Source: Heloderma charlesbogerti
Lineage: Eukaryota > Chordata > Lepidosauria > Squamata > Helodermatidae
Assembly (NCBI GenBank): GCA_026122225.1
Contig: JANEZZ010000793.1
Coordinates: forward strand, 992,001 to 1,056,000
Direction: 5' to 3'
DNA: 64,000 nucleotides
Notes under the pieces: model-generated
Databases searched by the model: none
What the model saw: only the letters and a program-made list of their open reading frames with translations
What the model was told of the DNA's origin: nothing
Shown here: positions 17,001 to 62,209 of the stretch, piece after piece
How the letters are laid out: each line of letters opens with the position of its first letter
Position numbering within the stretch: the first letter of the stretch is position 1
Position numbers and translations under genes: made by a program

Positions 17001-20000
17001 GGGTGACTGGGCTGACAGGCCCCAACCCCAGGAAGGCACCCCCAAGCCAACAAAGGACCACTGGGAAGACCAGCCTGGTAAGGGGGCAGGGCCCTCCTTC
17101 CCCTACATCAGGAGGAAGGAGCTCAAAACCAGGAGGTGACAGATGTGTAAGGGCTGAATGCCCTCATTTCACAACCCTTGCTACTGAAGTGTCTATTTTG
17201 AGGTAAATGTTCTCCAATGATCCTCTGAACTCTCCCTGCAACATCTGACATGCCCCTCCCAAAAAATATGTATTTTGCTCCTTTTTTGTTCCTTTGGAAG
17301 CTGTTAAAATAGGTAAAAATTGTTAAAAACGACCACCACTTCACACTGTGACAAGGCTTCTTCACTTTCTTCACACAGCGCATAGTTAAACTATGGAATT
17401 CACTACCACAAGATGTGGTGATGAGCATCAATTTGGATGACTTTAAAAGGAGATTGGACAAATTCATAAAATATAAGGCTATCAGTGGCTACTAGTCCTG
17501 AAGGCTATATGCTGCCTCCAGTATGAGAGGCAGCATGTCTATGTACACCAGTTGCTGGGGAACATGGGTGGAAGGGTGCTGTTGCATTCATGTCCTGCTT
17601 GTGGGTTTCCAGCAGGCAGCTGGTTGGCCACTGTGTGAACAGAATGCTGGACTGGATGGACCTTGGTCTGATCCAGCATGGTTCTTCTTATGTGCAATCC
17701 TGTCCTCGTCCATAACATGGGATAGGGGATATTGCTGTTGTTGTTGTTGTTGTTATTTCATTTCTATACTGCCCAATAGCTGAAGCTGTCTGGCCGGTTC
17801 ACAACAATTCACAAGTTAAAGTACAGCATAAAAACGTAAATGTACAAAATTTAAAAACAATTTAAAGAGCTAAAAACAATTACAATAAAATACTAAAATA
17901 CATTGGCCTCTCCAATACTAATATAGCACTGGACAAAGGCTGGTTTGGAAAGTACGACAAAGCAGGAAAGTATGCCTGCTTCCAGATGAAAACAGAAGAT
18001 AATTGTACCTGTTTTAGAATCTTTGATGTGGGCCATTGTCTCCCTGGTATTTACTCCCATGTCTTGAAAGTCACGATCGATCCTTCCTCCTCTGTCCATC
18101 ACTGTATAACCAGAACCTCCAACAGAAAAGCCATCTTGAAGAGGAAAAAAGAAGACAGTTAAATCTGGGAGGCCTCAAGGAGAATGAGAGAAAGGCACCA
18201 AGAACATAAAAGCATAAAGAAATCTAAGTAGTGATGGTGACTGCACAAAATGTGGTCAGCTAGCCTATTATTGAGTGTAGTTAATAGTGCACTGACCGAC
18301 CCATCATGCATTTCATTTATCATTAGTTTGTTTTAGAATGTCAGTGTTATAATTCTACCTTTTAATGTGCATATTGTTTGCTTGTTTTGCAAGCCTAAGG
18401 GTTTTTTTTTTTTCTGTTCCCTGTTTAGCAGTGACCAATGGTTACAAGCCCCTTCATGGATCACTGCCTTGTTGTGGCGAAGGGGCTTGCGTAACTCAGT
18501 GAAGCCATAAGCTATGCCGTGCAGGGCCACCCAAGACGGACAGGTCATGGCAGAGAGTTCTGACAAAATGTGGTCCACTGGAGAAGGAAATGGCAACCCA
18601 CTCCAGTATTCTTGCCAAGAAAACCCCATGGAACGTATCACAAGGCTAAAAGATATGATGCCGGAAGATGAGCCCCTCAGGTCGGAAGGTGTCCAATATG
18701 CTACTGGGGAAGAGCAGAGGGTATTTCCAAGTAGCGCCAGAAAGAGTGAAGCGGCTGGGCCAAACCCGAAAGGACACTCAGCTGTGGATGTGTCTGGTGG
18801 TGAAAAGAAAGTCCGATGCTGTAAAGAACAATATTGTTTAGGAACCTGGAATGTCAGATCAATGAATCAAGGTAAGCTGGAGGTGGTCAAACATGAGATG
18901 GCAAGATTGAACATCGACATCTTGGGAATCAGCGAACTAAAATGGACAGGCATGGGCGAATTTAATTCAGGTGACCATCATATCTACTATTGTGGGCAAG
19001 AATCCCTTAGAAGAAATGGAGTAGCACTCATAGTCAACAAAAGGGTGGGAAAAGCAGTACTGGGGTACAATCTTAAAAATGATAGAATGATCTCAGTACG
19101 AATCCAAGGCAAACCATTCAACATCACAGTAATTCAAGTCTATGCCCCGACCACTGAGGCCGAAGAAGCTGAGGTTGATCGGTTCTATGAAGACCTACAA
19201 CACCTTCTAGAACTAACACCAAAAAAAGATGTCCTCTTCATCATAGGGGATTGGAATGCTAAAGTAGGAAGTCAAGAAATCACCGGGATAACAGGCAGGC
19301 ATGGCCTTGGTGTACAAAATGAAGCAGGACAAAGGCTAATAGAGTTTTGCCAAGAGAACATGCTGATCATAGCAAACACTCTTTTCCAACAGCACAAGAG
19401 GCGACTCTACACATGGACGTCACCAGATGGTCAATATCGAAATCAGATTGATTATGTCCTTTGCAGCCAAAGATGGAGAAGCTCCATACAGTCAGTAAAA
19501 ACAAGACCTGGAGCTGACTGTGGCTCAGATCATGAGCTGCTTCTTGCAAAATTTCGGCTTAAATTGAAGAACGTCGGGAAAACCACTAAACCGTTCAGGT
19601 ATGACCTAAATTATATCCCTGATGAATATACAGTGGAGGTGAGGAATAGATTTCAGGGATTAGACCTGATAGACAGAGTGCCTGAGGAACTATGGACGGA
19701 GGTCCGTAACATTGTTCAGGAGGCAGCAACGAAATCCATCCCAAAGAAAAAGAAATGCAAGAAAGCCAAGTGGCTGTCTGATGAGGCTTTACAAGTAGCT
19801 CACGAAAGAAGGGAAGCGAAAAGCAAGGGAGAAAGGGGACGATATACCCAACTGAATGCAGAGTTCCAGAGAATAGCAAGGAGAAACAAGAAGGCCTTCT
19901 TAAATGAACAATGCAAAGAAATCGAGGAAAACAACAGAATGGGAAAGACTAGAGATCTCTTCAAGAAAATTGGAGATCTCAAGGGAACGTTTTGTGCAAA

Positions 20001-23000
20001 GACGGGCATGATAAAGGACAAAGAAGGCAGGGACCTAACAGAAGCAGATGAGATTAAGAAGAGGTGGCAAGAATACACAGAAGAACTATACAGGAAAGAT
20101 CTGAATGTCCCTGATAGCCATGATAGTGCGGTCACTGAACTTGAGCCGGACATCCTCGAGAGTGAAGTCAAGTGGGCCTTAGGAAGCATTAGTAACAACA
20201 AAGCTAGTGGAGATGACAGTATTCCAGCCGAGCTATTTAAAATCCTAAAAGATGATGCTGTTAAAGTGCTGCATTCAATATGCCAACAAATCTGGAACAC
20301 TCAACAGTGGCCACAAGACTGGAAAAGGTCAGTTTATATTCCAATTCCAAAGAAGGGCAACGCCAAAGAGTGTTCAAACTACCGCACCATTGCGCTCATT
20401 TCACATGCCAGCAAGGTGATGCTCAAAATCCTACGAGCTAGGCTTCAGCAGTATGTGAACCGAGAACTACCGGAAGTACAAGCTGGGTTTCGAAGAGGCA
20501 GAGGAACTAGAGATCAAATCGCCAACATTCGCTGCATCATGGAGAAAGCAAGAGAATTCCAGAAAAACGTCTATTTCTGCTTCATTGACTACGCTAAAGC
20601 CTTTGATTGTGTGGATCACAACAAACTGTGGCAAATTCTGAAAGAGATGGGAGTACCAGACCACCTTACCTGTCTCCTGAGAAACCTGTACGAGGGTCAA
20701 GAAGCAACAGTCAGAACCAGACATGGAACAACCGATTGGTTCAAAATTGGGAAAGGAGTACGACAAGGCTGCATATTGTCACCCTGCTTATTTAACTTAT
20801 ATGCAGAGTACATCATGAGAAATGCCGGGTTGGATGAATCAGAGGTTGGAATTAAGATTGCCGGGAGAATTATCAACAACCTCCGATACGCAGACGATAC
20901 CACCCTAATGGCAGAAAGTGAAGAGGATCTAAAGAGCCTCTTGTTGAGGGTGAAAGAGGAGAGTGCAAAAGCTGGTTTGAAACTCAACATTAAAAAAACT
21001 AAGATCATGGCATCTGGCCCCATCACTTCCTGGCATATGGAAGGGGAAGAAATGGAAGCAGTGACAGATTTTACTTTCTTGGGCTCCAAGATCACCGCAG
21101 ACGGTGACTGTAGCCATGAAATTAAAAGACGCTTGCTCCTTGGGAGGAAAGCTATGGCCAACCTAGACAGCATAGTAAGAAGCAGAGACATCACCTTGCC
21201 AACAAAGATTCGTCTAATCAAAGCTATGGTTTTCCCAGTAGTAATGTATGGCTGTGAGAGCTGGACTATAAGGAAGGCTGAGCGCCGAAGAATTGATGCT
21301 TTCGAACTGTGGTGCTGGAGAAGACTCTTACGAGTCTCCTGGACTGCAAGGAGGTCAAATCAGTCCATCCTAAAGGAAATCAACCCTGAGTGCTCATTGG
21401 AAGGACAGATAATGAAGCTGAAGCTCCAATATTTTGGCCACCTAATGCGAAGAGAAAACTCCCTGGAAAAGACCCTGATGCTGGGAAAGACTGAAGGCAA
21501 AAGGAGAAGGGGACGGCAGAGGATGAGATGGCTAGATAGCATCACGGATGCAATGAATATGAACTTGAGCACGCTCCAGGAGAGAGCGCAGGACAGGAAG
21601 GCCTGGCATGCTATGGTCCATGGGGTCACGAAGAGTCGGACACGACTGAACGACTGAACAACAACAACAAATGGTTACAAGCAAACAAACAATACTGACT
21701 GACTGAAGCGCAGTGAGCTTCCCTGGAGACTGTATTTCACACTACACGGCCACCACTGAGAAGGCCCTTCTCCAGCCTTCCCCAACCTGGTGCCACCAGA
21801 TGTGTAGGAGTGCAACTCCCATCACCTTGGGAATGACGGGAGTTGCAGCCCAACACAGCTAGAGGGCACCAGGTTGGGGGAGGCTGTTCTATTCTGTGCC
21901 ATAGAAGATTTTACTTCAAAAAAGGATGGGTCCCAGAGAAAAGCCTCCCCAGATGACCTGAGATGTGAAGTGATTCACATGGGAGAAACTGTTCCCCCAG
22001 GTATGCTGGGCTTTAAAGGTAATCACCAGCACTTTGAACATTACACCATGCTCTGAAGACAAGAATATTCTAACAATATACACCGTTTAAGTCATACACT
22101 TACATTTTGGTGGACTCTTCCCAGCTCTTGTGTGGCTATTAGCAGTTTCTTCCATAGCCTGCAAAACAAGGGGATCGTCACTCCCCAAGTAACCCTATGA
22201 GAGCGAGGTGACAGAATAGATAGTGGCAGAGAGGTAAAAAATGACAGTCGTTAAACACATCACATTTTTTCCTGCATCAAGATAATTTCTTTGTAAGGAA
22301 AATGGTGTACCAGGGGTACACCACCTTTTTGGCCCCGAGGGCCACATGTGATGCTGGCTCAAGGGTTGCACACACGCAGACACAAACATCCCAATGATCC
22401 GGACCCGATACATATCACTAGTGGTGTAGTCAAGCCAGGTCTCACAGGGCTGGAGCGCCAGTACGTTTTGATTATTTATTTATTACATTTCTATAATGCC
22501 CAATAGCTGAAGCTCTCTGGGCGGTTCACAACATTAGCAGGGACGCTGACATCATCTGCCACCTCCTTCAGCCTTTCCTGTTCCCTCTGCGCTTAGCTGC
22601 AATCCTCACAGTAACAGGAGGAAATGGATTTTCCCATGCAAAATATATTGCTGTGAGCTACCCCTGTTGTAGCGTGACATATTTTGGGGGTGGCTTGGTC
22701 TTGAAGGAGCAATTAAGTCTCATTAGCTTTACAAAATGTCTGCTCCTAGTGGAGATGAAAACTGCTAGAACTGGTTTGTTTCATTTCATGTCATTTATTA
22801 TATTTCTATAATATATAGAATATATATTATATTCCATATAATACCCCATAGCTGAAGCTATACCCCATAGCTGAAGCTCTCTGGGTGGTACACAAAAATT
22901 AAAAACCATTGAAAATACATTATGCAAAGTGCACATGTATATACCCACATCCGTTCCCACCTATCTTATCTCTGGCTAAAACCGCTTCAAGCATCGAGGA

Positions 23001-30387: not shown

Positions 30388-31691
30388 CCCCTTCATGGAT
30401 CACGGCCTTGTTGTGGAGAAGGGGCTTGTGTAACTCAGTGAAGCCATAAGCTATGCTGTGCCGGGCCACCCAAGATGGACAGGTCATGGTGGAGAGTTAT
30501 GACAAAATGTGGTCCACTGGAGGAGGAAATGGCAACCCACTCCAGTATTCTTGCCAAGAAAACACCATGGAATGTATCACAAGGCTAAAAGATATGACAC
30601 CAGAAGATGAGCCCCTCAAGTCGGAAGGTGTCCAGTATACTACTGGGGAAGAGCAGAGGGAATTTCCAAGTAGCGCCAGAAAGAGTGAAGCGGCTGGGCT
30701 AAAGCCAAAAGGACACTCAGCTGTGGATGTGTCTGGTGGTGAAAAGAAAGTCTGATGCTGTAAAGAACAATATTGTTTAGGAACCTGGAATGTCAGATCA
30801 ATGAATCAAGGTAAGCTGGAGGTGGTCAAACAAACATCATGAGAAATGCCGGTTTGGATGAATCACAGGTCGGAATTAAGATTGCCTGGAGAATTATCAA
30901 CAACCTCTGATACGCAGACGATACCACCCTAATGGCAGAAAGCGAAGAGGATCTAAAGAGCCTCTTGCTGAGGGTGAAAGTGGAGAGTGCAAAAGCTGGT
31001 TTGAAACTCAACATTAAAAAAACGAAGATCATGGCATCTGGCCCCATCACTTCCTGGCATATGGAAGGGGAAGAAATGGAAGCAGTGACAGATTTTACTT
31101 TCTTGGGCTCCAAGATCACCGTAGACGGTGACTATAGCCATGAAATTAAAAGACGCTTGCTCCTTGGGAGGAAAGCTATGGCAAACCTAGACAGCATAGT
31201 AAGAAGCAGAGACATCACCATGCCGACAAAGGTCCATATAACCAAAGCTATGGTTTTCCCAGTAGTAATGTATGGCTGTGAGAGCTGGACTATAAGGAAG
31301 GCTGAGCGCCGAAGAATCGATGCCTTCGAACTGTGGTGCTGGAGAAGATTCTGATGAGTCCCCTGGACTTCAAGGAGGTCCAATCAGTCCATCCTAAAGG
31401 AAATCAACCCTGAGTGCTCATTGGAAGGACAGAGACTGAAGCTGAAGCTCAACTATTTTGGCCACCTAATGCGAAGAGAAAACTCCCTGGAAAAGACCCT
31501 GATGCTGGGAAAGACTGAAGGCAAAAGGAGAAGGGGACGGCAGAGGATGAGATGGCTAGATAGCATCACCAATGCAACAAATATGAATTTGAGCACACTC
31601 CGGGAGAGAGTGCAGGACAGGAAGGCCTGGCATGCTATGGTCCATGGGGTCACGAAGAGCCGGACACGACTTAACGACTGAACAACAACAA
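30388..31691 (+). mobile_element. Internally deleted Bov-B LINE
   Basis: 1304 bp with 11-bp direct repeats GCCACAGCTCT (30377-30387 and 31692-31702). The first about 445 bp match the start of the full-length copy; then the sequence jumps at about 30835 to a point equal to 20811 of that copy, so about 1.9 kb of endonuclease and RT is missing. The remainder has RT-end motifs ([11 protein letters not shown]) and several stops, among them TGA at 30907 and at the end of the frame near 31354. It is non-functional. Confidence 0.88.
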
Positions 31692-35167: not shown

Positions 35168-35528
35168 TGTTAGATAAAAAGTCCTTGCTTTCGGTTTAGA
35201 AGAAAAGAATGCCAGGCAGGCAGCAGTGGATCCAACACTATTTTATTGAACGTTTTGCAAAACGGGTGCAGAGCAGTCTGGACCCCGAGACACGTGTGCA
35301 AAAGCCCTTTATATCATATTGCTTCTATTGTTCTTACCAGTAACCAATGAAACAGTTAGTACATCGGCTCACTAAGTTAATAGCCAATAAACAGTCAGTA
35401 TCAGCTTACCAAACTGTTAGTCATGAGCACGTCAGTATGATTTTCTTTTTGCTCTGCCTACATTTTTCGCCACTCGGGCTTTTATGTAACTTGAGACGCC
35501 AACAGTTACGGAGTCTCTTTTTCTAACA
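35168..35528 (-). repeat. ERV-A 3' LTR
   Basis: 361 bp, no difference from the 5' LTR found by eye. The polypurine tract AAAGGAGGGAAT lies directly upstream on the sense strand (35540-35529). Confidence 0.93.
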
Positions 35529-35566
35529 ATTCCCTCCTTTAAGTCTTTATTCATGTCTTAAAGCGT

Positions 35567-36434
35567 TTAAAACGGAGCCTCTTTATTGGTACAATAAAGC
35601 AAGAGCATCTGTTTTGACAGAGCGGTTTTTATCAATCGCTGGGATAAGCCTTTAACACAGGGGATAATGCAACAACCAAATAACACTATAACTCTTATCA
35701 TCACTACAAGTGAAATAAGGATTGAGGCTGCTAGGTGTTTTTATTTTTCAAACTATCTCTCTAACCAGGCAGTCACGGGGTTGTTAATCTCTGAATTCTT
35801 GGCTAATTCTTCAGACAAGGCAGTGAGGCTCTGCAAAGCCCTTGTTACCGTGCCATCTGGGGCAGTGTTGTTAGGGATGAAGGTGCAACACCGTCCACCT
35901 AGCATGACACAAACCCCTCCTTTTTTTGCTAACATATCAAGAACACGCCGATTTTCCCAAGCCATTTGGCTGGTGGCATTTAGTTGCTCAGCCAATCTCT
36001 TTATAGCATCACGGGTATAGTTTATTGAGAGTCTGGCACTTTTTTTCTCCCCATGCGTTAGGGTGCTGGAACAAACGGATCACAAAGGTGAGGAGGGAAG
36101 GAGTGTCCCATCCTAGTGGAAAGGGCAGCACCTTTGCTACAGATCTCCCTGTGGCACAAACAAAACAGTCAGACTTATTTAGAGACTTGGCTGTATACTT
36201 TATTCACTCTAACTACACATTATCAGTTTCCTCTGTTATTGGGATCCCTAACCTGGTTCTCCAGGGACGCCTCTGTTTCTCAGGGATCTGTACCAGAAGT
36301 GGTCTGAGGGGTGTTGGTGTGACATTTCGGGGTTTTATCTTAAAGCTGTCAAGCCCAAGTCCTTGAGGTATCACCATCTACGTTAATATTTCTTTAACCA
36401 ACATTACCAACACCACCCACAATACTTGCTTCAT
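35567..36434 (-). pseudogene. ERV-A env, internally deleted with many stops
   Basis: Relative to the intact ERV-C env it lacks about 0.52 kb at about 36031, from the C-terminal half of SU through the cleavage site into TM. Short TAGTTTAT/TAATTTAT homology lies at the junction. Tryptophan codons of ERV-C are stops at 36380-36378, 36215-36213, 36206-36204, 35755-35753 and 35743-35741. The TM still shows the CX6CC motif CVMLGGRCC. It is non-functional. Confidence 0.92.
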
Positions 36435-36435
36435 A

Positions 36436-39400
36436 TTACAAGTTTTTTGTAATTCGAACCCGAGCTTTTCCCAGATGTTGTGACTTGTATATTACAGGCG
36501 ATTGTGGCTCCTGGATGGCTTCTTCGCCTGTGTCCTTGGCAGCTTCCAGAGGGGTGCCAGGGAGCAAAGGACCGTTGCCTGTGTCCTCCTGTTTTTTCTA
36601 AGTGACAGAAGGAAGCGAGGGTCGCTTAAATGGCTTTATCCGGCTGCAATGTGTCCATTTATTAGAACCCACAAGCTTTATACATGAGTGGCTGGTTGGT
36701 CCCACCAAATAAGGCCCCTCCCACCCTTCCTTTAAAGCTTCTTTATTTCACTTTTTCAGCAACACCTCGTCTCTCGTCTGGAAGAGATGGATAGGTGCAT
36801 CTAACGGCAGTCTCTGAAACGGAACGGAATAAGCTTGTAGCTGTGAAAGAACAGACTGTAGAGAAGTCAACTGATCCCTTAGCATCTGATCACCCACCTC
36901 CCACTTGACTTCCTCCCTCCTTCCGCAGTGTACCCGAGGCGGGAACCTAAACATCAGTTCAAAGGGGGACAATTTTATGTCCTTTCTTGGCATCCTTCGA
37001 AGCTTCGTTAAAGCTATTGGCAGAGCCTCAACCTAAGTGAGCTTCACCCCTCGTTGGAGTTTGGTTAAAGTCTCCTTGAGGCTCCGATTGATTCTTTCAA
37101 CCTGTCCACTTGCCTGGGGCCTCCAGGGGCAATGTAAATGCCACTCTACTCCCAGAGCTTGTGCTAGCCCCCGTGTAATAACTGAGGTGAAATGTGAGCC
37201 CTGATCGGACTCTATAACTTCGGGCAGGGAGAACCGGGGCACCACCTCCTGTAACAATTTAGCAACAACAGTTTTAGCTTGGCAGTTCCTACATGGAAAC
37301 GCCTCTACCCACCCTGTCATTTGACATACTATTACAAGCAAATACCTGTAACCCCTACATGGTGGCATCTCAGCAAAATCAATCTGCGCCCTCTGGAAAG
37401 GATAGTAGGCCCATGGTCGCCTTCCTTTTGGAGGAGGGGGTGCCCTGGGAGGGTTGGTTTTCTGGCAGACTTCACAGGTTGCGGCTAGTCGGTGGGCGCA
37501 TACAGTTAAGCCAGGGGAGACAAACAGCCTCTTGCAATAGTCGATCATGGCTGATGCTCCAGGGTGCCCAAGAGAATGGTGAACTTGCTCTAGAACAACC
37601 CTCTGCAGGGTCTGTGGAAGAAGCAGTCTTCCATCTGTCATCTGGATCCATCCGTCATCGCAGGGACTTATTCCGTGTTCTTGTGCCATCCGTAACTCAG
37701 CAGGGGAGTATGTGGGGCGCTCTTTTCTTTTGGGTAGAATGAGGAATGTTCCTTGGATTCCCTCTCTGGCTGCTCTTTTTGCGGCCTCATCTGCCTTCTG
37801 GTTTCCCTGTCTCCATTTTTCCTCTTTTTCTTTCCCATGGGCTCGGACGTGGACAACAGCTACTTGTGAGGGTAGCTGGAGGGCATCCAGAAGATCCACT
37901 ATTAGGCCGCCATTAGCCACTGGAGATCCGTTTGCTGTAAGGAATCCCCTCTCTTTCCACAGTTGCCCATGAGCATGCACAACGGCGAAGGCATTTTTGC
38001 TATCGGTATAAATGTTTATTCGCTTTCCCTTGCTGGCTTGCAGGGCTCTTGTCAGGGCTACCAGTTCAGCAGATTGGGCGGAAAAAATGAGGAGGCAGCC
38101 TTTCCTCACGCACACTCTCTTCTAGAGTAACGACAGCCGCGCCTGTGTAGCGCCTTCCATCCAGCATATAGCTAGATCCATCTACAAACAGATCTCTGGC
38201 TCCCTCTATTGGTTCATCCTCAAGGTCCGGTCGGCCTTTGGTGTCTAGGTCTAATACTTCAAGGCAGTCATGATCTGGGAGTCCTGATCCGTTTGTGTCC
38301 AGTAATGTTGGCAGTAGTGTGGCGATATTAAAGCTGGAGCAAGCCTTAAAAGTGAGGTTTTCGTTTGTTAGTAAACCTATTTCATATCGGGAATGCCGGG
38401 CTGGGTTGAGAAATTTGCTTCCTCCTCCTGATCTCAAAATTTGTGGCACTCCATGCGGCACCCAAACTCCAATGGGTCCTCCCATTGTAATTTTCTCCGC
38501 TTCAACGCAAACTAGAGCCGTCGCTGCTACTGCCCTTAGGCAACTTGGCCACCCTCGTGCTACGACATCTAGGACCTTGGAGTAATATCCCACTGATCTC
38601 CAAGAGGGCCCTTTTTGCTGGCAAAGCACTCCCGAAGCTATGCCCTTATTTTCATGCACATAAAGTCTAAATGGCCGGCTGGGATTTGGTATGGCTAGAG
38701 CAGGTGGTGACACAAGAGCAGCTTTAAGACTGAGAAAAGACTTATTTATTTCCTTAGTCCATTTCCATTTATCTAGTCTATCTTTCTGCAGCGCCTCATA
38801 CAGCGGCCGCGCTGTCTCCCCATAGTTTGCTATCCATAGTCGGCAGAATCCGGTCAGCCCCAGGTAGGCCCTCAATTCGCGGGGGGACTTAGGGACAGGA
38901 GTGTCATGGATGACTTCAACTCTTTCTTGCCTTAGGCTCCGAGTCCCTCTAGTTATGTGGTAGCCTAGGAATTTTACAGTTGGTTGGGCCAACTGTACTT
39001 TTTCTTTTGACACTTTATACCCCCCCCCCGCTAGGTAGTTGAGGAGGGAAACCGTCCCACTCAGGCACGCGTTCTTGGCCTTGGCTGAAATCAGGAGGTC
39101 GTCACAGTATTGGAGGAGATGCACCTCTGAGTGCTGCTGGACCCAGGGTTCGAGATCCTTTTGGAGCTGCTGGCCAAAGACCACCGGTGAGAGATTCAGC
39201 CCCTGAGGGATGACTGTTCATGCTAATTGAACTTTTGAACCCCCCCCTGGGCTTTCCCATTCAAAGGTGAACAAAGGCCTTGAATCAGGGTGGAGGGGGA
39301 TGCTGAAAAAGGCGTCTTTTAGGTCTATGACAGTGAACCAGGCGTGCTCTTCCGGAATTCCTACAAGGAGGGTGTGTGGGTTGGGGACCACAGGATGGGG

Positions 39401-40159
39401 GGCCTCGATCTGCTGATTAATGAGCCGGAGGTCTTGCACTAAGCGGTAGCCCTTGCCCCCCCCTCCTCTTTTTGGCACAGCGATGATGGGCGTGTTATAG
39501 GGGGACATTATCTCAATGAGCCGGCCTTCTTCTAGGAGCTTTGTTATTACTGGTTGTAGGCCCTCCTTTCCTTGGCGGGAAAGGGGATACTGTTTCACAT
39601 GAACAGGCCTTGCTCCCTCCTTGAGGGGAATTTTGTATGGTGCTGCCGACTTGGCACGAGAGGCCCCTCCAATCCCGGCCCAAGCTAGAGGGTTGACTCT
39701 GTTTTCTATTAAGCTCCAGTCCTCCGTGGCCTCTGGGGTGGATTCTTCTGCAACCTTCAAAAGGGCCATTTGGTAGTTACTACTCTGTTGTTTAGGGAGC
39801 CGTATCTCCATCCTTCCGTCAGGAGTAAAAGCAATCTCAATTTGGAGTTTAGTCAATAAGTCCCTCCCTAGCAATGCCACCGGACAGGAGGGGGTACAGA
39901 CAAATGCATGTTCTAGGTGTGTTTTCCCAACCTTGGTGAACAGGGGACGAGAGAGGGGCACTTGGGTTGCCCTTCCCTCGACCCCCATTATGGTGGTGAA
40001 CCCCCCACCTCCCGTTGGGGGCTCACTGAGGGGGAGGACGGACGGGGCGGCCCCTGTGTCTACAAGGGCTTTGTAGGAGCGGCCCCCAACCTTTATTTTG
40101 ACCATGGGGTCCCGTCTTGCCTCAGAGACGGCTAAGAGGGGGCTGGGCCCCGGTCTGTC
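36436..40159 (-). pseudogene. ERV-A pro-pol, interrupted
   Basis: Protease (ALVDTGAAPSVL near 40070), reverse transcriptase (FTVIDLKDAFFSIPL; catalytic QYCDDLLIS near 39110), RNase H (LFVDGSSYM, IYTDSKNAFAVV), and integrase with an HHCC finger (HHSLGH, CEVCQ) and D,D,E residues (QIDFAEMP, SDQGSHF, QVERINRSLKE). Breaks: TGA at 39220-39218 between protease/RT-N and the rest of RT; an extra A near 38085 in RNase H (ERV-C has five A, this copy six); TAG at 37035-37033 where ERV-C has TGG. It cannot be translated through. Confidence 0.92.
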
Positions 40160-41436
40160 TTAATCTCTTTCCTGTTCATACAGAACTCTCTGCGCTCCTC
40201 TCGTATTTTCCCCTCTCTCTTTCTGCTTCAAAGCCTCACAGTCACGCTTCCAGTGTCCCATTTTCTTACAAAAGGCACATTGATCTTTCCCCAAGGGAGA
40301 TCCTTTCCTTCCCCCTTTCCTCCCCTTCCTAGCTCCCTCCTTGTCAGGTTTAAGAACCGCAGCAAGGAGCTTGGCCTGCCTCTTGTCTTTTTCTTTTCCT
40401 TCTTCTTCTTCTCGCCTCTCATAAACCTTTTGAGCTACTTCAACTAAAACTCCTAGGTCAGCTGCCAAGCCTCCTTCAACTTTTTGCAACTTCTTTTTGA
40501 TGTCTTGGCAGCTATTTCCCACGAACTGAGTCGTGAGGATCCTTAAATTTTTTTGGATCATTCAAGTCAATGTCAGTATATTTGGTGAAGGCTTCCCTTA
40601 GCCTTCGGAGGAACACGGCAGGAGGCTCATTTTTGTCTTGTTTTAAAGTCAGAACTTTTTGCAAATTGGGGGCCCTCTGCGCAGCTTGTCTCATGCCTGC
40701 TAAAATGAGCCGAAAATACAGCATGCCTCTGCCTTTGTGCAGCGGTGGCTAGTCTCCGATCCGGCTGTCTTAAAGGCAACACTGCTGCTATCTGATCTTC
40801 GGTCACAAGGGGGAGCTCCTCCCTAAGCTTGGCGCGCGCCGGCAAGAATAGTCGGTTTCTGACTAAGGAAACAAGTGTTTAATAACATCTGTGTGTTGTC
40901 CCAGGTAGGATTGTGTGTGAGCCTCACATTTTCTATTAAGGACAACAATGGACTGGGGTCCTCCTCAAAGGAGGGGTTAAATTGTTTCCAATTATACAAG
41001 TCAGATGTCGTGAATGGGACATAAACAAACAACGTCTCTTGAGGATATTGGGCGGTAGAGTCGGGGACCTCTCTAATAGGGAAGGTCAATTTTTCTTAAT
41101 TATCACAGGGAGGGCCAAGGATATACATTTAATTACCCATGGGGCGGGCCTGCCGCCGAGGGGTACACAAGTTGCCCACGAATCAATATAAGGGAACTGG
41201 TCCCAACTTCCCCTCTGTGCTACTGTTGTTCGCACATCAGATACCAAGGTTGGGTCAAAAGACCCCTCGGGTGGCCATTTGGGTTCTAATACTGGCCATT
41301 CCCGAGTGCAAAAAAAGACAAGACGATCCTTTGTCATCTTAGTTCTATAATCCTGCTTAAAATGTGACCAATTGCGCAAACAACACTCCAAGGGCGTATG
41401 GGACTTCTTCGCAGACTTAGATTGGGACCCGCCCAT
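40160..41436 (-). pseudogene. ERV-A gag, frameshifted
   Basis: Structural polyprotein. The start MGGSQSK is a myristoylation-type matrix N-terminus. Capsid follows with PFTTSDLYNWKQFNP near 41010 and a major homology region (FLRRLREAFTKY) near 40600. Nucleocapsid has one zinc knuckle, CAFCKKMGHWKRDC, near 40265. The frame shifts near 41090, 40840, 40750 and 40550, the last in an A7 run. Gag ends at a TAA (40162-40160), after which the pro frame continues in phase. Confidence 0.85.
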
Positions 41437-41836
41437 GACGGTGGGAATTTCAGTCAGCAATTCTTGCGCTTCGCCCTCCTCTGACCTAGCCCGTCTCCGG
41501 GGTAAGGAAATGCAGATTGGGGCTCCCCACTCGCTTCGCCCGTAGGCGTCTCACACAATCACAAACACACCACCGTCCCGCGTTTATCCCCTAATGTAAG
41601 CTGTTTCACTTACCCCAAAAGCCTCTTCTGTCCCGCCCGCAGCTGCGTCCAGCTGCTTATTGATCCACTGCCGGTGCCTAAAAGGAGTGATCATGTCTCC
41701 CTCTTCCTCTGGCGTTGGTCCCCGAGCGCCTCTGCCGCCGCCATCGTGAGGAGAAGGCAGTGTAAACAACCGCCTGTGGCCACTTCTCCTCCGTGGCCCC
41801 TCGGCTCAGCGCGAAGGGGACGCGCCCCGAAGCAGG

Positions 41837-41854
41837 ATCCGAGTCACGGCACCA
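41837..41854 (-). other. ERV-A primer binding site, tRNA-His
   Basis: TGGTGCCGTGACTCGGAT, three bases from the 5' LTR, is complementary to the 3' end of vertebrate tRNA-His including CCA. ERV-B has the same site at 59397-59380. Confidence 0.85.
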
Positions 41855-41857
41855 AAT

Positions 41858-42218
41858 TGTTAGATAAAAAGTCCTTGCTTTCGGTTTAGAAGAAAAGAAT
41901 GCCAGGCAGGCAGCAGTGGATCCAACACTATTTTATTGAACGTTTTGCAAAACGGGTGCAGAGCAGTCTGGACCCCGAGACACGTGTGCAAAAGCCCTTT
42001 ATATCATATTGCTTCTATTGTTCTTACCAGTAACCAATGAAACAGTTAGTACATCGGCTCACTAAGTTAATAGCCAATAAACAGTCAGTATCAGCTTACC
42101 AAACTGTTAGTCATGAGCACGTCAGTATGATTTTCTTTTTGCTCTGCCTACATTTTTCGCCACTCGGGCTTTTATGTAACTTGAGACGCCAACAGTTACG
42201 GAGTCTCTTTTTCTAACA
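41858..42218 (-). repeat. ERV-A 5' LTR
   Basis: 361 bp with TG...CA ends. On the sense strand a TATA box (TATAAAGG) lies at 42004-41997 and a poly(A) signal AATAAAA at 41937-41931. Confidence 0.93.
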
Positions 42219-42222
42219 ATAG

Positions 42223-47391: not shown

Positions 47392-47402
47392 TCTGTAACA
47401 GG

Positions 47403-48261
47403 TTGTTGTTGTTGTTCAGTCGTTCAGTCGTGTCCGACTCTTCGTGACCCCATGGACCGCAGCACACCAGGCCTTTCCTGTCTTGCACTCTCTCCCAGAG
47501 CGTGCTCAGGTTCATATTCGTTGCATCAGTGATGCTATCTAGCCATCTCATCCTCTGCCGTCCCCTTCTCCTTTTGCCTTCAATCTTTCCCAGCATCAGG
47601 GTCTTTTCCAGAGAGTTTTCTCTTCGCATTAGGTGGCCAAAATATTTGAGCTTCAGCTTCAGTATCTGTCCTTCCAATGAACACTCAGGGTTGATTTCCT
47701 TTAGGATTGACTGACTGGACCTCCTTGCAGTCCAGGGGACTCGTAAGAGTCTTTTCCAGCACAACAGTTCGAAAGCATCGATTCTTTGGCGCTCAGCCTT
47801 CCTTATAGTCCAGCTCTCACAGCCATACGTTACTACTGGGAAAACCATAGCTTTGATTAGACAGACCTTTGTCAGCAAGGTGATGTCTCTGCTTCTTACT
47901 ATGCTGTCTAGGTTTGCCATAGCTTTCCTCCCAAGGAGCAAGCGTCTTTTAATTTCATGGCTACAGTCACTGTCTGCGGTGATCTTGGAGCCCAAGAAAA
48001 TAAAATCTGTCACTGCTTCCATTTCTTCCCCTTCCATATGCCAGGAAGTGATGGGGCCAGATGCCATGATCTTCGTTTTTTTAATGTTGAGTTTCAAACC
48101 AACTTTTGCACTCTCCTCTTTCACCCTCAACAAGAGGCTGTTTAGATCCTCTTCGCTTTCTGCCATTAGGGTGGTATCATCTGCGTATCTGAGGTTGTTG
48201 ATAATTCTCCCAGCAATCTTAATTCCGACCTGTGATTCATCCAACCCGGTGTTTCTCATGA
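47403..48261 (-). mobile_element. 5'-truncated Bov-B LINE
   Basis: 859 bp, flanked by 11-bp direct repeats TCTGTAACAGG (47392-47402 and 48262-48272). The minus strand keeps an open frame of about 285 residues for the RT end ([36 protein letters not shown]). It lacks everything upstream, as in typical LINE truncation. Confidence 0.9.
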
Positions 48262-48272
48262 TCTGTAACAGG

Positions 48273-53254: not shown

Positions 53255-53695
53255 TGTTGCAGAACCCAGAGTCAGAGAGACCACGGAGTGAAGGAAAAAG
53301 AGATTCTTTATTTAACGCGCGGGCTTAAGGCTGGAATCGTTTCCAAAGAGCCAGAAGCCCCGATTTACATTAGCACATTGGTTTTATAGACATTGTGACA
53401 CATATGAAACGGCTCCTCCTCTCTCTCCCGCATGGGGTTGCAATCCTCAACATTTCTTCTCTTAGCACTATTGTTTATAATACAAGAACTGGGTTATAGG
53501 GTAGCCATGATAAGGAGAGAACAGAAGAGAACAGCAGAGAACAAGATATACAATTGTATGACCTTTGACAAGATAAGGAATTCCTGTGTCTCGTCACCTT
53601 ACAACAATATATTCAAGGGAGAAAGAGCTCAGCAAGAACATGAAGCATGAGACTGCATGAGGCTACTTAGTCTGACCCCCGATATGGCTGCTACA
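53255..53695 (-). repeat. ERV-B 3' LTR
   Basis: 441 bp. The sense-strand polypurine tract AAGGGGGGAA lies directly upstream at 53705-53696. Confidence 0.92.
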
Positions 53696-53974
53696 TTCCC
53701 CCCTTAAATGCATAATTTCATTACAATTATAGCATTTCTGATAACTATACAAAGCTTTTTGTGACATACATATTACTTAGCCTCTTGTTGGGCTATTAGA
53801 GCGTAGAGGGCAGCAGTTTTACTAGCTGAGACATAAAACAGATTGGTTAAACAGCGCATAAGACAAGGAACGCAGAGACATAACAGAACTTTTATGAACA
53901 GCACTGGTAGAATTAGGATGAACAATGCTTTTAAGCTAGCTAAGATCTGGAAGCCAAGGGGTTAACTAATTTAG

Positions 53975-54850
53975 CTAATTGTTTTGTCTTATTGTTTTGT
54001 TAGCTACTATATTGTACAGCTTGTTGATCTGTTCATTTACAGCATTGCCATTATCAGTTAAGTTAAAACAACAGAGCTTTTGGTGTGTCTCACAACTTAA
54101 ATGATGAAGAAGGAAGAGGTAATCTATACTAGCTCTGTTTTCTAGAACTGCACCTTTTAGATCACGCAACTCTTTATTTAACAATGACAATGCTCGTGAG
54201 GTGGCATTTATGCTTTTGGCTAAGCTGCAAGCTAACTGGTTGATTTCCGGACTATCAGCCAAGGCTAAACCTGGAACCTTAACCAGTGACATTGCTAAGG
54301 CCAATTTTTTTGAGTCAAAATATAACTGCACATGACTATTACAATTTTTAGTTAGTTGGAGTGCTCGAGGCTGCCGTTGACGGATTTTCTCGGGCTACAG
54401 GGGAAGAATTGGCACCAGTTCAATTGGCGGCTGAGGCAACATGGGTGGTTATTAGACAAGTTGGCAGGAATGAATGACCAAGTGCGGGAACTACATGTCT
54501 AAAACTATCCATGAGGCAAAAGTATGTGGTCATTATTAAAAGATATGTTTTAAATTTTATTACAGTGGAAGGGGGCCAGGGATAGCTTTATATTTTCTGG
54601 AAAATTTTTGACAATTAAGCATTCGTGCACATGTAGCATTTGTTTCAGCAACAATGGGGGTGCGTAGAGTGAACTCTGTAGGGGGTAGGATCTTTGCAAC
54701 CACGCCCCAATTAGCATTTTGGGAATAAGTTAAACTTACACCATAAACTCTTAACATGGTATCTTTTTGAATTTTCCCAGGATGTCTACAGACAGGTATT
54801 AGGCAAGAGCTAATAAGCCTGTTTGCAGGTATACCTCTTGGCAAACAAAA
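53975..54850 (-). pseudogene. ERV-B env remnant
   Basis: An SU segment (54844-54560) with MPRGIPANRLISSCLIPVCR, then a TM segment (ending 53975) with LENRASIDYLFLLHHLSC and the CX6CC motif CETHQKLCC. A basic stretch IRQRQPR near 54375 may be the cleavage site. The TM frame stops before any membrane anchor, so it is probably not functional. Confidence 0.7.
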
Positions 54851-55014
54851 ATGTTTTACTCTCGTGATGTTGGCCAGGTGAAGCCAGTAATTATCAGCAA
54901 ATTACTGGGACAAACTTTTTTTTTCCAGGGGCAGACCCCCCCCTTTTGCACCTTATTAAGGAAACACAATGCAACACTACTAACACTACAACACTACAAT
55001 ACGCATGTTTGATC

Positions 55015-55165
55015 TTCTTTGGGATCTGACCGTACGCTGGGCAGCTATTCACCTGGCAAGCTGCAGTAGGGTCTAGTCCCCTTCTTCAGTTCTCTAGTTG
55101 CAGGTCTGACCGTACGCAGGGGGACAGTCTCCCGGTGTGTCCACAGTAAGGTCTAGCCTGAGTCT
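55015..55165 (-). repeat. Two copies of a short repeat in ERV-B
   Basis: On + each copy has GGATCTGACCGTACGC or AGGTCTGACCGTACGC, followed about 45 bases later by CAGTARGGTCTAG and CTTCTT. Function unknown. Nearby, AGTCAATGTCACGGCCC is also doubled at about 55531-55570. Confidence 0.6.
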
Positions 55166-55699
55166 TCTTACTGCTTTTTCAGAATGATTTTTAAAGGATT
55201 TTCAGGATTTTTGTTTATAGTCTACTTTCCCCCTCTTGCTTTCTTGACTCGTGTCTAATGTATTCAGGGTTTAACTCCAGCTGCTTTCATAGCTGCGGGG
55301 GTGGAAAGTATGACAGTTTTCAGTCTTCTCCATCTGGGAGTCAAAGGGTTATTTTTCTCTCTTTAACTCATACTTTAACTCTTGGTTGGAAAGGATGAGC
55401 TTCTGTGATGGGAATGGCTTATTTTTCTAAGACAAAGCGAAGCTGGGCTTGAAGAACTTTGCTCAGTGTTTGGACTTCTTGTTTAAGGCTAACGTTTGCT
55501 TGCTCTTGATGCCACTCCAGTGTCAATTATGAAGTCAATGTCACGGCCCCTCGCAGTCAATGTCACGGCCCTTCTCAAGCTGTTTCCCTCTTCGCCCATT
55601 CTGGCCCCTTTGGTTTTTTTCTTTGTGTATTTGATTTATTTTATTTGGGCATTCATGACACTAATGTCTATTTTGTCCACACTGGGCACACTGGTTCTT

Positions 55700-55995
55700 T
55701 TTTAAGAATCTTCTGCCTCTGCCGGGTCTTCTTTTTTTTTTTCATCCATGTCTTCTTGGGCCTCTGGGTTGAGGGAGGGGGGTATACTGGCAATAGGCAT
55801 TTGAAAGACGCTCCAAGCACGCTCTGGGGCCTCGGTGGCACCTTGCAGCACTTTAAACACTTTGGTCATATTAACTGACTTCTTTATACCTGCTTTCATG
55901 GCTTCTAACAGCAGGGTTTGATACTGGGTGAGGCGCTTTAGCCCAACTTGTGTTTTGGGATTCCAGCGAGGGGGGGATTTACTTACAAGGAGACT
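55700..55995 (-). pseudogene. ERV-B gag capsid remnant
   Basis: The frame reads KRLTQYQTLLLEAMKAGIKK, then NMTKVFKVLQGATEAPERAW, arranged like the gamma-like capsid C-terminal domain with its major homology region. It passes into an acidic end (EDMDEKKKEDPAEAEDS) and a stop at 55702. No zinc knuckle follows. Confidence 0.65.
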
Positions 55996-55999
55996 TTAT

Positions 56000-58900
56000 T
56001 GGGTAACTTACAGCACACAGGCGTACCTAATGGTTGGATCAGACAGCTTCTCTGAACCACGAGCTATTGGGCTAAATGGGTTTTTATACCATACATGTTA
56101 CCCATGAGGCAGCACAACACTAGCAAGCATTTTCAGCATAGGCTAGAAGTGTTTGGTTCTCAGGCACAGCTTCCTGTAAACAACTTCACTTCCCAAAGTG
56201 CTTGATAACACTTTTATTCATTAGTATGGGAAGTCAAATTTTTTCTCTTTCTTTTGCTTTTTTTTTTTTTTTGCTGATCTGCCTGTATTGCAGATCATGT
56301 TTCAAACTTTTTATATAAAACTTTCTGATCCATGCACCAGCCTTGTTTCTTTATTTGTCTTTTTCAAGTTAAACTCACTTACTTAAACCTTTCTGCCTTA
56401 CACTAGTCCCAATGACACACATTTGGGATAGGGTCTTTTTCTCTTTCTAGTTACATTTTCTTTATCTTAAAGAACTATTACATTATTGTGGCTACTTTAC
56501 CCCAGGTAATAAGCTCCAGGCACAATCAGCTGCTTTTAATTTATCCTGGGGGCAACTATGGCCACGCTTCTTTTTTACAAATGTTTTTTCTTTGCCTCTT
56601 GCGTTTTTTTCTTTTTTTTTTTTTTCTCTATCTGTCTGCTACTTTCTCTATTCCTTTTTTTTTCTTACTTGCTTTTGTCTTTTCGCTACTTGACTTTGTC
56701 TTTTCTCCTTGTCATCCATTGGGAACCACACTTAGTATCATTTGGAGTTGCAACTAACACTAATCTGCAAATATCACATATACTTTATGATATCTAAGAA
56801 ATCATAAAATATACACAACAAACTTTTTCTGCAATTTAACACAATGAATGGAAAACACTTTTTGCATGGTAAGGCATGATGGAGCAGATCCAGCAATCAT
56901 ACTGCTCTTCTGGCTGAAAGCTCAGGGCCCATTAAAATCAAGGGACGGGCATACCCACACACGGAAAGAGTTCTAGGTCACCATTTTTGCATTGGCAACT
57001 CTATGCTGCATGAGTTTTAGCAGAAGGAAATCTAAAAGTCACAGATCAAACTCAGCCTGCTGTACACTGAGCTGACTACAAACATAGACACACGGTCCAC
57101 AGCGATGAGAGTTCAAGTTTATCAAAAGCTTCACAGCACTGTCCATGGCAAGTCTTTGACAATTTAAAATTTTAGTTCATGTGCAGAGTGTCTCTAAAAA
57201 GCCCAGACATTGATGGAGGCAAACAGAGAAGGCTCTGGGCAATGAAGATGAGATGTTTCCAGCAAAGGCTCTCCACTTTTGCATCAGTTTAAAAAGGGAA
57301 AGTGTGGCCCTACATCCCTTCTGACAGACAAGGGCCTTTAACATTTTAGCAAGGCCTCTGTCTAAACAGAGCGGCACAGCTCAGCTCTCTAGCCGTGACG
57401 CTTTAACTTGGGCAACTCCTCTGTAAATTTTATTTTATCTCTGTCAGATTCTCTCACAGACATTTTAAAAACTTAGTCTTTTTTTTTTTTTTCTTCTAAC
57501 CTGGTACACGAAAGCACTGAAAGGACGCTGGGGGGTGATGGGCATCGCCTTATACTTGCATTTTTCAAGCAGCCATTAATCTTCGGGGAGGCGGTGGGGT
57601 GATTTGCAGGACTTTAAAGGCAAGCTTCTCAGTTTGTTTGTATTTGTAAATCCCAAGCTTAAAACAGGACACGATGAGGTACAGGGCAGCCAAATTCTTG
57701 CTTTGGCACGGGCAACAAATAACTCGGGTCAGCTTTCTTCGCTGGGGTCTCAAACAGGAAAACAGTCTTAATTTAAAGTTGTAACATCACTGACAGCGTC
57801 AGCCAGCCAGCTACACAGATCTCATTGTTTTTTAAGACAGTTGCTCCAATATTTTCTTTTCTTCTCAATCAGGTTGGGTCTCCCAGCTTACACAGTTTAT
57901 TGCAGCTTCCAGGAGCATGGCAGTAGCGTGATTTTGGCTTGGCTAGGAACATGCTGTCTGGTTTCTCGGTCTCTTTAGCACACACACTTAGGCAGTGTAA
58001 CACTGGACACTCGAATCAGTGAGATTTCTTCATTGCAGGGAATCCCACGGCAAAAGCTTAATGGTTACGCTCTTCAGAAATCATATAGCTGATGGTCAGT
58101 AGCTACAGGCTCTATGCAATTTTAACACAGTTCAAAGCTAAACACGGTTACCTTGACAGAGATCTTCAACGTGGTCTTTCTGCTTCATTCTGCTTTGGGA
58201 CAGTCTTATGGCACACTTTTCACTCGAAGAGGGGTCTAGCCTGTGCTCTGGGGGCTGATTCTTCACCTTTATTTTCTATTTTGCCTTCATCTTCTGGGTC
58301 TTCATTTTCAGTTTCCATTTCTTAGGGATTTTATCTCAATTAGGCGAGGTGATGATGTTGCACAACTCAGAACGTTGTGGGCAATTTTCCTGCCCCCCCT
58401 CTCTCGGCGCGCTAGGCTAACAGCTTCTTCTTCGGCCTTACACTCTCACGCTCCCACGCTTTGTTAAAAGCCAGACTGTCCTGCAACATTTTTCTAATAA
58501 ACAGCCTCAGATCTTGTTCTTTTTTTCCTCTCAGCTCGACCTTGAGCTTTTTGCTGTTTTCTCTCTCTATTCTGAATATTTTTTTAAAAAAACCTTTTTC
58601 CTTCTTTGTTTGACATACATCTCAAGGGGGTGCAAGGTTTGCTTCCCCCACCACCCATAGCCTCCCTCCTAAATTGAAGACAGACACAATTAGGGAATGG
58701 GAATTGGTCAGTGAGTAAGGGGTCTCACTGGCCGACACAAGAGGATTTTTCACACCACGCACTTTGCTACTGGCCTGGGCACCCGGACGGTCAACGGTAT
58801 GCTTCAGAAACCGCAGTAGCCACTCACACAATCATCAATCTCTCCACTACATCCATATGTCCCTGCCACCCACTTTTCCCACTTTTTACCAGAGCGGAAA

Positions 58901-59379
58901 ACGGCTTCCCCAGCTTCCTCAGCTTCCTACTGAGTACTGGCGTGCTGGGTACTGGCGCCCACTCAGGGGTGTGATCAGGCCCCCCTTCTACCCGCAAGGA
59001 GTAGGTTCTTTTGTATACGTATACCACCAACACTGACCTTCTTCATAAGGCGGGGCCCTCTTTTTTTCTGCCCAGTGGCCTTTCTCCCTAAAGGCGGGGC
59101 CCTCTTTTTCCCATATACTTGCCTTTCTCCTGAAGGCTTCAAATGTGGGTTTCAACTCAATTGCAGCTGCGATATAGGAAGGGCTCAAGTTCCTTCCTCC
59201 GCTTCCCAAGGTTCTCTTGCTGCTCGCTGCCGTTTGGGCGATCCCGGTGCAGGCTTTCTCCCATTCACTCGACAAAAAGGTCGGTGGCGCCAAGAAAGGG
59301 AGGCATGCGCCGAGCTCGTCTTCCCGGTGCGGCGATCAAGAGCAGGCAACTGCCACCTGTCTGGCTCAGAGCCTGCCAC
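56000..59379 (-). other. ERV-B unrecognised 5' interior
   Basis: About 3.4 kb between primer site and capsid remnant, far longer than a usual leader plus matrix. Minus-strand frames are short: about 100 residues at 59293-58988 (SPSYIAAAIELKPTFEAFRR), about 33 acidic residues starting with ATG at 58320 (METENEDPEDEGKIENKGEE), and frames at 57753-57565 and 57377-57177. None shows a family I know. A short unit with GGCGGGGCCCTCTTTTT on + is duplicated near 59050 and 59094. Confidence 0.5.
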
Positions 59380-59397
59380 ATCCGAGTCACGGCACCA
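59380..59397 (-). other. ERV-B primer binding site, tRNA-His
   Basis: The same 18 bases as in ERV-A, TGGTGCCGTGACTCGGAT, four bases from the LTR. Confidence 0.85.
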
Positions 59398-59401
59398 TTT
59401 A

Positions 59402-59842
59402 TGTTGCAGAACCCAGAGTCAGAGAGACCACGGAGTGAAGGAAAAAGAGATTCTTTATTTAACGCGCGGGCTTAAGGCTGGAATCGTTTCCAAAGAGCCA
59501 GAAGCCCCGATTTACATTAGCACATTGGTTTTATAGACATTGTGACACATATGAAACGGCTCCTCCTCTCTCTCCTGCATGGGGTTGCAATCCTCAACAT
59601 TTCTTCTCTTAGCACTATTGTTTATAATACAAGAACTGGGTTATAGGGTAGCCATGATAAGGAGAGAACAGAAGAGAACAGCAGAGAACAAGATATACAA
59701 TTGTATGACCTTTGACAAGATAAGGAATTCCTGTGTCTCGTCACCTTACAACAATATATTCAAGGGAGAAAGAGCTCAGCAAGAACATGAAGCATGAGAC
59801 TGCATGAGGCTACTTAGTCTGACCCCCGATATGGCTGCTACA
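59402..59842 (-). repeat. ERV-B 5' LTR
   Basis: 441 bp, sense start TGTAGCAGCC and end GTTCTGCAACA. Poly(A) signal AATAAA at 59459-59454. One difference from the 3' LTR: T at 59576 against C at 53429, inside a CpG. Confidence 0.92.
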
Positions 59843-60412: not shown

Positions 60413-60775
60413 TGTTAGATAAAAAGTCCTTGCTTTCGGTTTAGAAGAAAAGAGTGCCAGGCAGGCAGCAGTGGATCCAACACTATTTTATTGAACGTTT
60501 TGCAAAACGGGTGCAGAGCAGTCTGGACCCCGAAACACGTGTGCAAAAGCCCTTTATATCATATCGCTTCTATTGTTCTTACCAGTAACCAATGAAACAG
60601 TTAGTACATCGGCTCACTAAGTTAATATCCAATAAACAGTCACTATCAGCTTACCAAGCCGTTAGTCATGAGCGCGTCAGTATGATTCCCTTTTTGCTCC
60701 GCCTATATTTTCCCGCCACTCGGGCTCTTACGTAACTTGAGACGCCAATGGTTATGGAGTCTCCTTTTTCTAACA
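60413..60775 (-). repeat. ERV-C 3' LTR
   Basis: 363 bp, TG...CA ends, aligned with the 361-bp ERV-A LTR with about 20 differences. The polypurine tract AAAGGAGGGAAT follows at 60787-60776. The partner LTR is outside the window. Confidence 0.9.
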
Positions 60776-62208: not shown

Positions 62209-62209
62209 A

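Follow-up and report, generated by a model that had tools for sequence, protein, structure and literature searches.

Shared G-to-A edits in an env-deleted gammaretrovirus-like subfamily of Heloderma charlesbogerti suggest that deaminase-edited genomes were re-mobilised in trans

Hypermutated proviruses that were copied again after editing, and defective proviruses mobilised by competent ones, have both been described in mammals, and these are the systems against which we compare ERV-A, an endogenous retrovirus (ERV) in a 64,000-nucleotide stretch of the Heloderma charlesbogerti genome (assembly GCA_026122225.1, contig JANEZZ010000793.1, positions 992,001 to 1,056,000; hereafter the window, with positions counted from its first base). 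Among mouse endogenous mouse mammary tumour viruses, Shaffer et al. (2025, PMC12548423) describe the pair Mtv17/Mtv23, in which a hypermutated provirus has given rise to a copy at another locus, flanked by a different target-site duplication (TSD), and the minus-strand motif T(T/C)C is that of one mouse APOBEC3 allele. In the bovine ERVK[2-1-LTR] group, defective C-type and D-type elements dominate new insertions and are thought to be trans-mobilised by competent ones (PMC10924933). On what these sources report, the first is a clear precedent for copied edited proviruses and the second for trans-mobilised defective ERVs.

The lizard locus resembles the mouse pair in that an edited provirus was copied to a new TSD and in its minus-strand context (TYC here), but the mouse case as reported is one pair edited by mouse APOBEC3, whereas here a reptile carries four insertions of one edited genome and layered edits in a deleted subfamily. 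With the bovine elements it has in common defective, apparently trans-mobilised copies, recombination and a strand-specific G-to-A signal; those, however, are ERVK elements of a mammal with APOBEC3, and their G-to-A signal is described as second to CpG change (PMC10924933). Polytropic endogenous murine leukaemia viruses (MLVs) edited by mouse APOBEC3 are likewise MLV-type, with G-to-A above C-to-T, a TTC motif and a nonsense load (Jern et al. 2007, PMC2041998), but most of their edits were placed in the last cycle before integration, whereas here edits pass through further cycles. Editing traces in IAPE-D and HERV-K came from the same type of test, in GXA or GG contexts and with CpG as background, the editors there being mammalian APOBEC3 enzymes (PMC2531183). 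Outside mammals, anole lizard editing was reported in L1 and none in L2, CR1 or long terminal repeat (LTR) elements (Lindic et al. 2013, PMC3880073), which gives a squamate parallel in G-to-A editing and in a mutator APOBEC1 but leaves the anole LTR elements unedited. Zebra finch LTR elements show strong G-to-A editing (Knisbacher and Levanon 2016, as cited in PMC6523648 and PMC12548423), a likeness in element class outside mammals that differs in its bird host. Our literature searches, which covered titles and abstract openings but not the squamate results of Knisbacher and Levanon 2016, returned no edited squamate ERV lineage.

The explanation we prefer, with a probability of about 0.85, is that ERV-A is a member of a multi-copy, gammaretrovirus-like ERV subfamily that was active recently, is env-deleted, was edited by a deaminase and was re-mobilised in trans. 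A host cytosine deaminase of single-stranded DNA, from the AID/APOBEC superfamily and most likely of the APOBEC1 type, would act during minus-strand cDNA synthesis, presumably in the germ line, on C in YC (best TYC), which would leave sense G-to-A changes in GR(A). The resulting proviruses would carry many stops in pol and env and keep their LTRs, primer site and, putatively, packaging signal. Such edited genomes would be transcribed, packaged and copied by proteins provided in trans, presumably from undeleted relatives, and would be re-edited in later rounds, exchanging edits by recombination. The editing defence looks to have damaged the ERV-A element without stopping its spread with relatives' help, because copies with the same scars lie at several separate places in the genome.

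G-to-A changes in ERV-A and their polarity

ERV-A occupies 35168-42218 with its sense on the minus strand, as judged by its LTR pair, TSD and Pfam domains, and ERV-C, an unedited relative with undeleted env that served as one of the references, has its 3' part at 60413-64000 (minus strand) and extends past the window edge. Counted on the sense strand as ERV-C base to ERV-A base, 36060-38130 holds 17 G>A against 2 A>G and 2 C>T against 3 T>C, besides two transversions, and the base following the 17 is G in 9, A in 5, T in 3 and C in none; 35530-35780 holds 13 G>A against 3 A>G, with 2 C>T, 2 T>C and three transversions. A preliminary description of the window had compared the two elements by eye and read a hypermutation signature from the G/A and context figures, which recur here exactly for 36060-38130, as do the G/A counts for the shorter interval. 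The 13 changes of that interval are followed by A in 5, G in 4, T in 2 and C in 2. Longer alignments gave G>A 23, A>G 4, C>T 3 and T>C 5 over 36013-38227 (2214 aligned bases, 37 mismatches), 21, 6, 3 and 4 in the same order over 35531-36025 (495 aligned, 38 mismatches), and G>A 8, C>T 5 and A>G 3 in the LTR (367 aligned, 19 mismatches). The signal also runs beyond the intervals first described: between the 3' LTR and about 40.5 kb most bins show more G>A than C>T, with zero G>A in bins 37500-37999 and 39500-39999.

At the codon level, env differs from ERV-C at 48 codons, 25 of them by pure G>A (13 nonsynonymous, 5 Trp-to-stop, 7 synonymous), and pol at 17, where 13 are pure G>A (8 nonsynonymous, 3 Trp-to-stop, 2 synonymous) and the other four synonymous; the five Trp-to-stop changes in env are those first described, whereas pol has three where one had been counted. 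All 8 ERV-A stops in the stretch comparable with ERV-C fall on Trp codons. None of the eight undeleted copies in our reference panel shows a Trp-to-stop change, although stops of another origin occur in L022 (3) and L033 (1). The reverse transcriptase (RT) region of ERV-A has one further stop where 9 homologues have Trp, in an alignment using 23 of 97 listed pol homologues, and some further stops face non-Trp residues in 1-2 homologues each.

Evaluating polarity supported ERV-C-like bases as the probable ancestral state. The ERV-C residue has more homologues at 17 of the 18 protein-changing pure G>A sites and the ERV-A residue at 0, with 1 uninformative (399 homologue cells against 31), in an env outgroup set of 35 of 120 listed homologues (532 found) from sharks, bony fish, frogs, birds and mammals; ten other protein changes that were not pure G>A divide into 6 for ERV-C, 2 for ERV-A and 2 ties. 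Against the panel, ERV-A shows 43/643 G>A and 7/557 C>T (Fisher p 8e-7), with p 2e-4 for GR versus GY context, whereas ERV-C against the remaining panel copies shows G>A 4/761 and C>T 10/671. Protein outgroups and host copies alike thus place the change on the ERV-A side, which is where the preliminary description had put it.

The element itself is bounded by LTRs of 361 bp of the TG...CA type (3' LTR 35168-35528, 5' LTR 41858-42218, both minus strand), which align with 100% identity over 35168-35530 and 41858-42220, and by the TSD ATAG, whose left copy at 35164-35167 matches the four bases read at the 5' LTR edge at 42219-42222. On the minus strand lie a primer-binding site read from the sequence next to the 5' LTR (41837-41854), which we take to be of tRNA-His type; a gag matrix-like open frame (41086-41550, Gag_MA 6e-13); a stop-interrupted pol with protease (PR), RT, RNase H (RH) and integrase (IN) domains (36436-40159; Pfam RVP, RVT_1, RNase_H and rve), open over 37033-38121, 38066-39217 and 39218-40159; and an env remnant comprising both deletion flanks (35568-36491, TLV_coat, frame mapped from the ERV-C env open reading frame 60814-62265), around which G>A density peaks at 35531-36099. 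The env deletion removed about 512 bp between two 13-bp direct repeats, leaving the repeat at 36013-36025 (minus strand, from alignment to ERV-C); the missing part corresponds to ERV-C 61276-61786, and in ERV-C the env frame has no interruption and the pol frame stays open up to the window end. Gag_MA p15, a PR-RT-RH-IN pol, a TLV_coat env and a 4-bp TSD define the gammaretrovirus-like group, MLV having a 4-bp target duplication, and all four were found here. Searches of viral contigs for relatives returned none.

Compared with ERV-C, ERV-A is a mosaic: divergence is far higher in its 3' end to about 36.25 kb (including 36013-36250) and in a gag block than in pol, which suggests recombination between family lineages. 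Part of the difference over 35.17-36.25 kb is ordinary divergence between lineages. The gag block (40500-41000, minus strand, delimited by comparison with the unedited panel) is ordinary lineage divergence rather than editing: over 40500-40999 ERV-A differs from that panel by G>A 21/117 and C>T 19/123, and similar divergence appears in L009, L011, L015, L018 and L019 and not in L020.

Edits shared among separate integrations

We searched the host genome (2.30 Gb, 3246 contigs) with a 252-base piece of the transmembrane (TM) region and took the 3' ends of 40 places and the 5' parts of 18, plus two 5' parts for the panel. L010 and L013 represent one provirus end, found on two contigs that are probably duplicates or alleles of each other, and were counted once, L013 being excluded from counts after the earliest comparisons, so that without ERV-A itself there are 38 further copies, plus ERV-C; signature counts leave out the LTRs and the divergent gag block. 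Four places, ERV-A among them, have the 252-base piece without any change (100%), and a fifth is listed as a 100% match that scores lower. Setting the LTR end at TCTAACA, we read matching TSDs in all but one of the 18 copies fetched at both ends (17 of 18, the remaining one being L020, whose 5' end the fetched sequence missed), and flanking bases vary between copies. Because TSDs match within copies and flanks differ between them, these are separate integrations and not segmental duplicates. The ERV-A deletion junction also occurs in L001-L003, L005-L012, L014, L016-L018, L025, L027 and L028, which with ERV-A makes 19 of the 40.

Every one of these 19 copies has a higher G>A than C>T rate against the panel, ranging from L009 (66/499 vs 10/418) to L017 (26/504 vs 11/418, p 0.036; non-CpG 13/406 vs 3/327), the weakest. 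Among the 21 copies without the deletion, 18 were not clearly edited and 3 clearly were: L015 (G>A 44/489 vs C>T 6/421), L020 (16/492 vs 3/421) and L041 (17/757 vs 3/661). Pooled non-CpG counts were G>A 160/646 vs C>T 28/560 for 19 edited copies and 21/646 vs 29/560 for 10 unedited near copies, with 46/646 vs 28/560 for four older, divergent copies kept apart (L019, L026, L030, L040). The G-to-A excess first seen between two elements therefore persists with the 38 further host copies. Several deleted copies are also without a further pol stretch (about 39.0-39.7 kb in ERV-A equivalents; L049 and L056, of copies L009 and L018), and this pol coverage suggests a second shared deletion within the subfamily.

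A variant of our explanation would have undeleted lineages escape or antagonise the deaminase, instead of their edited genomes being weeded out. L015, L020 and L041 have undeleted env and are edited, and close relatives of two of them are unedited, as this variant would allow, but purging of dead edited genomes gives the same pattern with fewer assumptions and we regard escape as unlikely. In a tree built without A/G columns and used for topology only, 16 deleted copies fall together and edited L020 and L041 stand beside unedited relatives, so editing seems to have struck several lineages.

The preliminary description had placed the hit on ERV-A itself. What holds of that reading is a strand-specific pre-integration change like minus-strand cDNA deamination; a hit on ERV-A itself is unsupported, because at 46 of the 49 sites in the 3' part where ERV-C has G and ERV-A has A, the A also turns up among 13 copies from outside the ERV-A cluster, and, in a comparison of 20 copies, just one G>A is both present throughout the six-member cluster and confined to it. 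Four members of the cluster, ERV-A, L001, L002 and L003, have in common 14 G>A changes together with 2 C>T, 1 A>G and 1 T>C, all absent from L005 and L006; L006 has 12 G>A, 5 C>T and 4 other changes of its own, and in this comparison 2 sites stayed unpolarised. The four members have different flanks and different TSDs. One edited genome is thus inserted at four places, whichever the origin of the 14 G>A changes. A single hypermutation event during the last reverse transcription before ERV-A integrated, which is the model given for endogenous MLV (PMC2041998), would fit its identical LTRs and the marked bias that ERV-A shows by itself (non-CpG, 35/540 G>A vs 2/464 C>T), and isolated cases of this kind may exist in L020 and L041, given their unedited nearest relatives in the tree. 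For ERV-A we have set it aside as very improbable, since its edits are shared beyond the cluster and its newest batch is common to the four insertions.

Shared edits in the re-mobilised subfamily carry no sign of coding selection among the 13 deletion-clade copies: G>A changes at GR sites in at least 2 of these integrations comprised 11 stops (expected 8.1), 27 nonsynonymous (27.1) and 9 synonymous (11.9) changes. The absence of purifying selection on shared edits argues for replication in trans, without the element's own env and 3' pol. Together with an env deletion shared by independent insertions, this is the pattern of a non-autonomous element.

Strand, context and timing of the changes

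Across 18 edited copies (35531-40499), 263 of 1165 distinct non-CpG sites show G>A against 45 of 1021 showing C>T, whereas CpG sites show 50/108 and 44/120. With CpG changes symmetric and non-CpG changes asymmetric, the hypermutation reading withstands CpG decay, the objection that had been raised alongside it. The G>A rate in these copies depends on the next base (G 0.379, A 0.264, T 0.149, C 0.104) and the second next base (A 0.401, others 0.145-0.212); the top trinucleotides are GGA (0.58), GGT (0.46) and GAA (0.42), with GCN at 9-13%, and a Hypermut-type contrast gives 224/626 at GRD against 89/647 at control sites (p 2e-20). The context is therefore GR in sense and YC, best TYC, on the minus strand. 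APOBEC and AID enzymes have general motif preferences, the AID hotspot being WRC (sense GYW), and this hotspot is cold in the 18 edited copies (32/260 vs 281/1013 elsewhere).

The G-to-A change acted before integration, because edits are common to independent insertions and change after integration is symmetric, the LTR pairs of 17 proviruses having 15 A/G and 15 C/T differences in 6143 bp. As a control, BovB copies in the window differ at 40 A/G and 70 C/T positions.

Misincorporation by RT, through biased nucleotide pools or a peculiar enzyme and with no deaminase, would likewise be strand-specific and pre-integration, and a title cited in PMC12548423 ties G-to-A hypermutation of an HIV-1 provirus to local sequence determinants. 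We consider it very improbable: the preference for a purine at +1 and A at +2 (with GCN at about 0.10) resembles the T(T/C)C of mouse APOBEC3 reported in PMC12548423, and close relatives with undeleted env are balanced. CpG decay or another post-integration mutation process, or an ERV-C that is the derived partner, can practically be dismissed, since greater mutability at CpG sites is joined to symmetric change there, the LTR pairs and BovB copies show no G-to-A excess, and both the env homologues and the undeleted panel reject reversed polarity.

Candidate deaminases, neighbouring elements and meaning

The host genome contains 10 matches to PF08210. On one contig (C2851) there are three AID-type matches at 553887-556308, the middle exon having AID chains as its best PDB matches (176 bits), and three APOBEC1-like exons with open frames at 1006580, 1033235 and 1051029; the AID exon and each of these three have H-A-E and P-C-x2-C, an intact catalytic motif. 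The nearest proteins to the three are lizard sequences at 52-54%, in keeping with a squamate host, two of the three named APOBEC-1-like; two pairs among them are 54-55% similar; and the best PDB match is APOBEC-1 for one exon and APOBEC3G followed by APOBEC-1 for another. The Pfam profiles SNAD4 and APOBEC4_like outscore that of APOBEC1 on these exons, so we use the label APOBEC1-like as a putative one that draws on the lizard proteins, one exon's PDB match and linkage to AID. Elsewhere in the genome are an APOBEC2-like frame, two NAD1/APOBEC2-like frames and a match on contig C98, which we take to be APOBEC4-like. The two NAD1/APOBEC2-like frames lie 17 kb apart on contig C2106 (L063, L068), each with H-A-E and P-C-x2-C and with NAD1 and APOBEC2 as top profiles. 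The APOBEC3 profile was top-scoring for none of the AID-, A1-, A2- and NAD1/A2-like matches looked at, a set that excludes C98, and NCBIfam gave no name for the deaminases. APOBEC3 is called eutherian-specific (PMC5399452), and lizard APOBEC1 is reported as a DNA mutator (PMC3880073).

The enzyme proposed at the outset, an AID/APOBEC1-like protein, is thus matched by AID and APOBEC1-like genes that are plausible candidate editors; the cold AID hotspot favours an APOBEC1-type enzyme, and from sequence we infer that one APOBEC1-like paralogue may be the editor. A broader proposal, that in a squamate without a recognised APOBEC3 the three APOBEC1-like genes on the AID contig fill the APOBEC3 role against a gammaretrovirus, with a TYC motif like that of APOBEC3, and that the edited, gene-dead genomes form a self-renewing parasitic lineage, moved by functional relatives and repeatedly re-edited and recombined, with editing the main engine of its evolution, strikes us as having about even chances.

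Several points weigh against re-mobilisation of a deaminase-edited subfamily. The 40 places scored were those nearest ERV-A among 612 candidates, the panel comprises three copies 5' of 37280, and the labels edited and unedited derive partly from the same counts, although deletion status is independent of them. Single-copy context tests gave no significance for L010, L017 and L041. Seven of the 14 G>A changes in the four-insertion batch are confined to the cluster and 7 occur in 1-3 outside copies, so that the batch may be part fresh editing and part recombination with an edited genome or repeated hits. Incompatible site pairs are more frequent at A/G sites than at others (0.37 vs 0.26 in the 3' part; 0.30 vs 0.23 in pol), which reflects recombination, probably with some repeated hits, and L025, L027 and L028 have the same deletion junction but lie outside the deleted clade in the tree, again by topology only, so either recombination may have spread the deletion or it may have originated more than once at its 13-bp repeat. 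G>A is highest near the 3' end in ERV-A and L009 (18.0% and 19.7% at 35531-35799; 5.3% and 4.5% at 38500-38999), and the 5'-to-3' rise expected from single-strand exposure (Spearman -0.79 over 8 bins, p 0.02; C>T -0.48, p 0.23) is suggestive but confounded by lineage blocks and missing stretches, one low bin falling where several copies lack sequence; a strong gradient claim was therefore dropped. A deamination motif for lizard APOBEC1 was not found in the accessible part of PMC3880073.

The window also holds a second, different ERV-like element at 53255-59842, with a 441-bp repeat pair 99.8% identical and a minus-strand frame (53975-54394) that by eye and by its motif we take to be TM-ectodomain-like, and long interspersed element copies at 18449-21667 (with a 1048-aa open frame), 30388-31691 and 47394-48262, presumably of BovB type.

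Taken for the family, these observations provide evidence that an LTR retroelement of a squamate has undergone deaminase-type editing; the earlier squamate study, as far as its accessible text goes, reported L1 only (PMC3880073). They also suggest that APOBEC1 or a related enzyme can occupy the niche of APOBEC3. The TSDs are evidence of separate insertions, hence edited genomes re-enter replication, and the G-to-A load of an ERV copy may therefore be older than that copy's last cycle. Because the copies are very young and near-identical, enzyme, motif and timing are testable.

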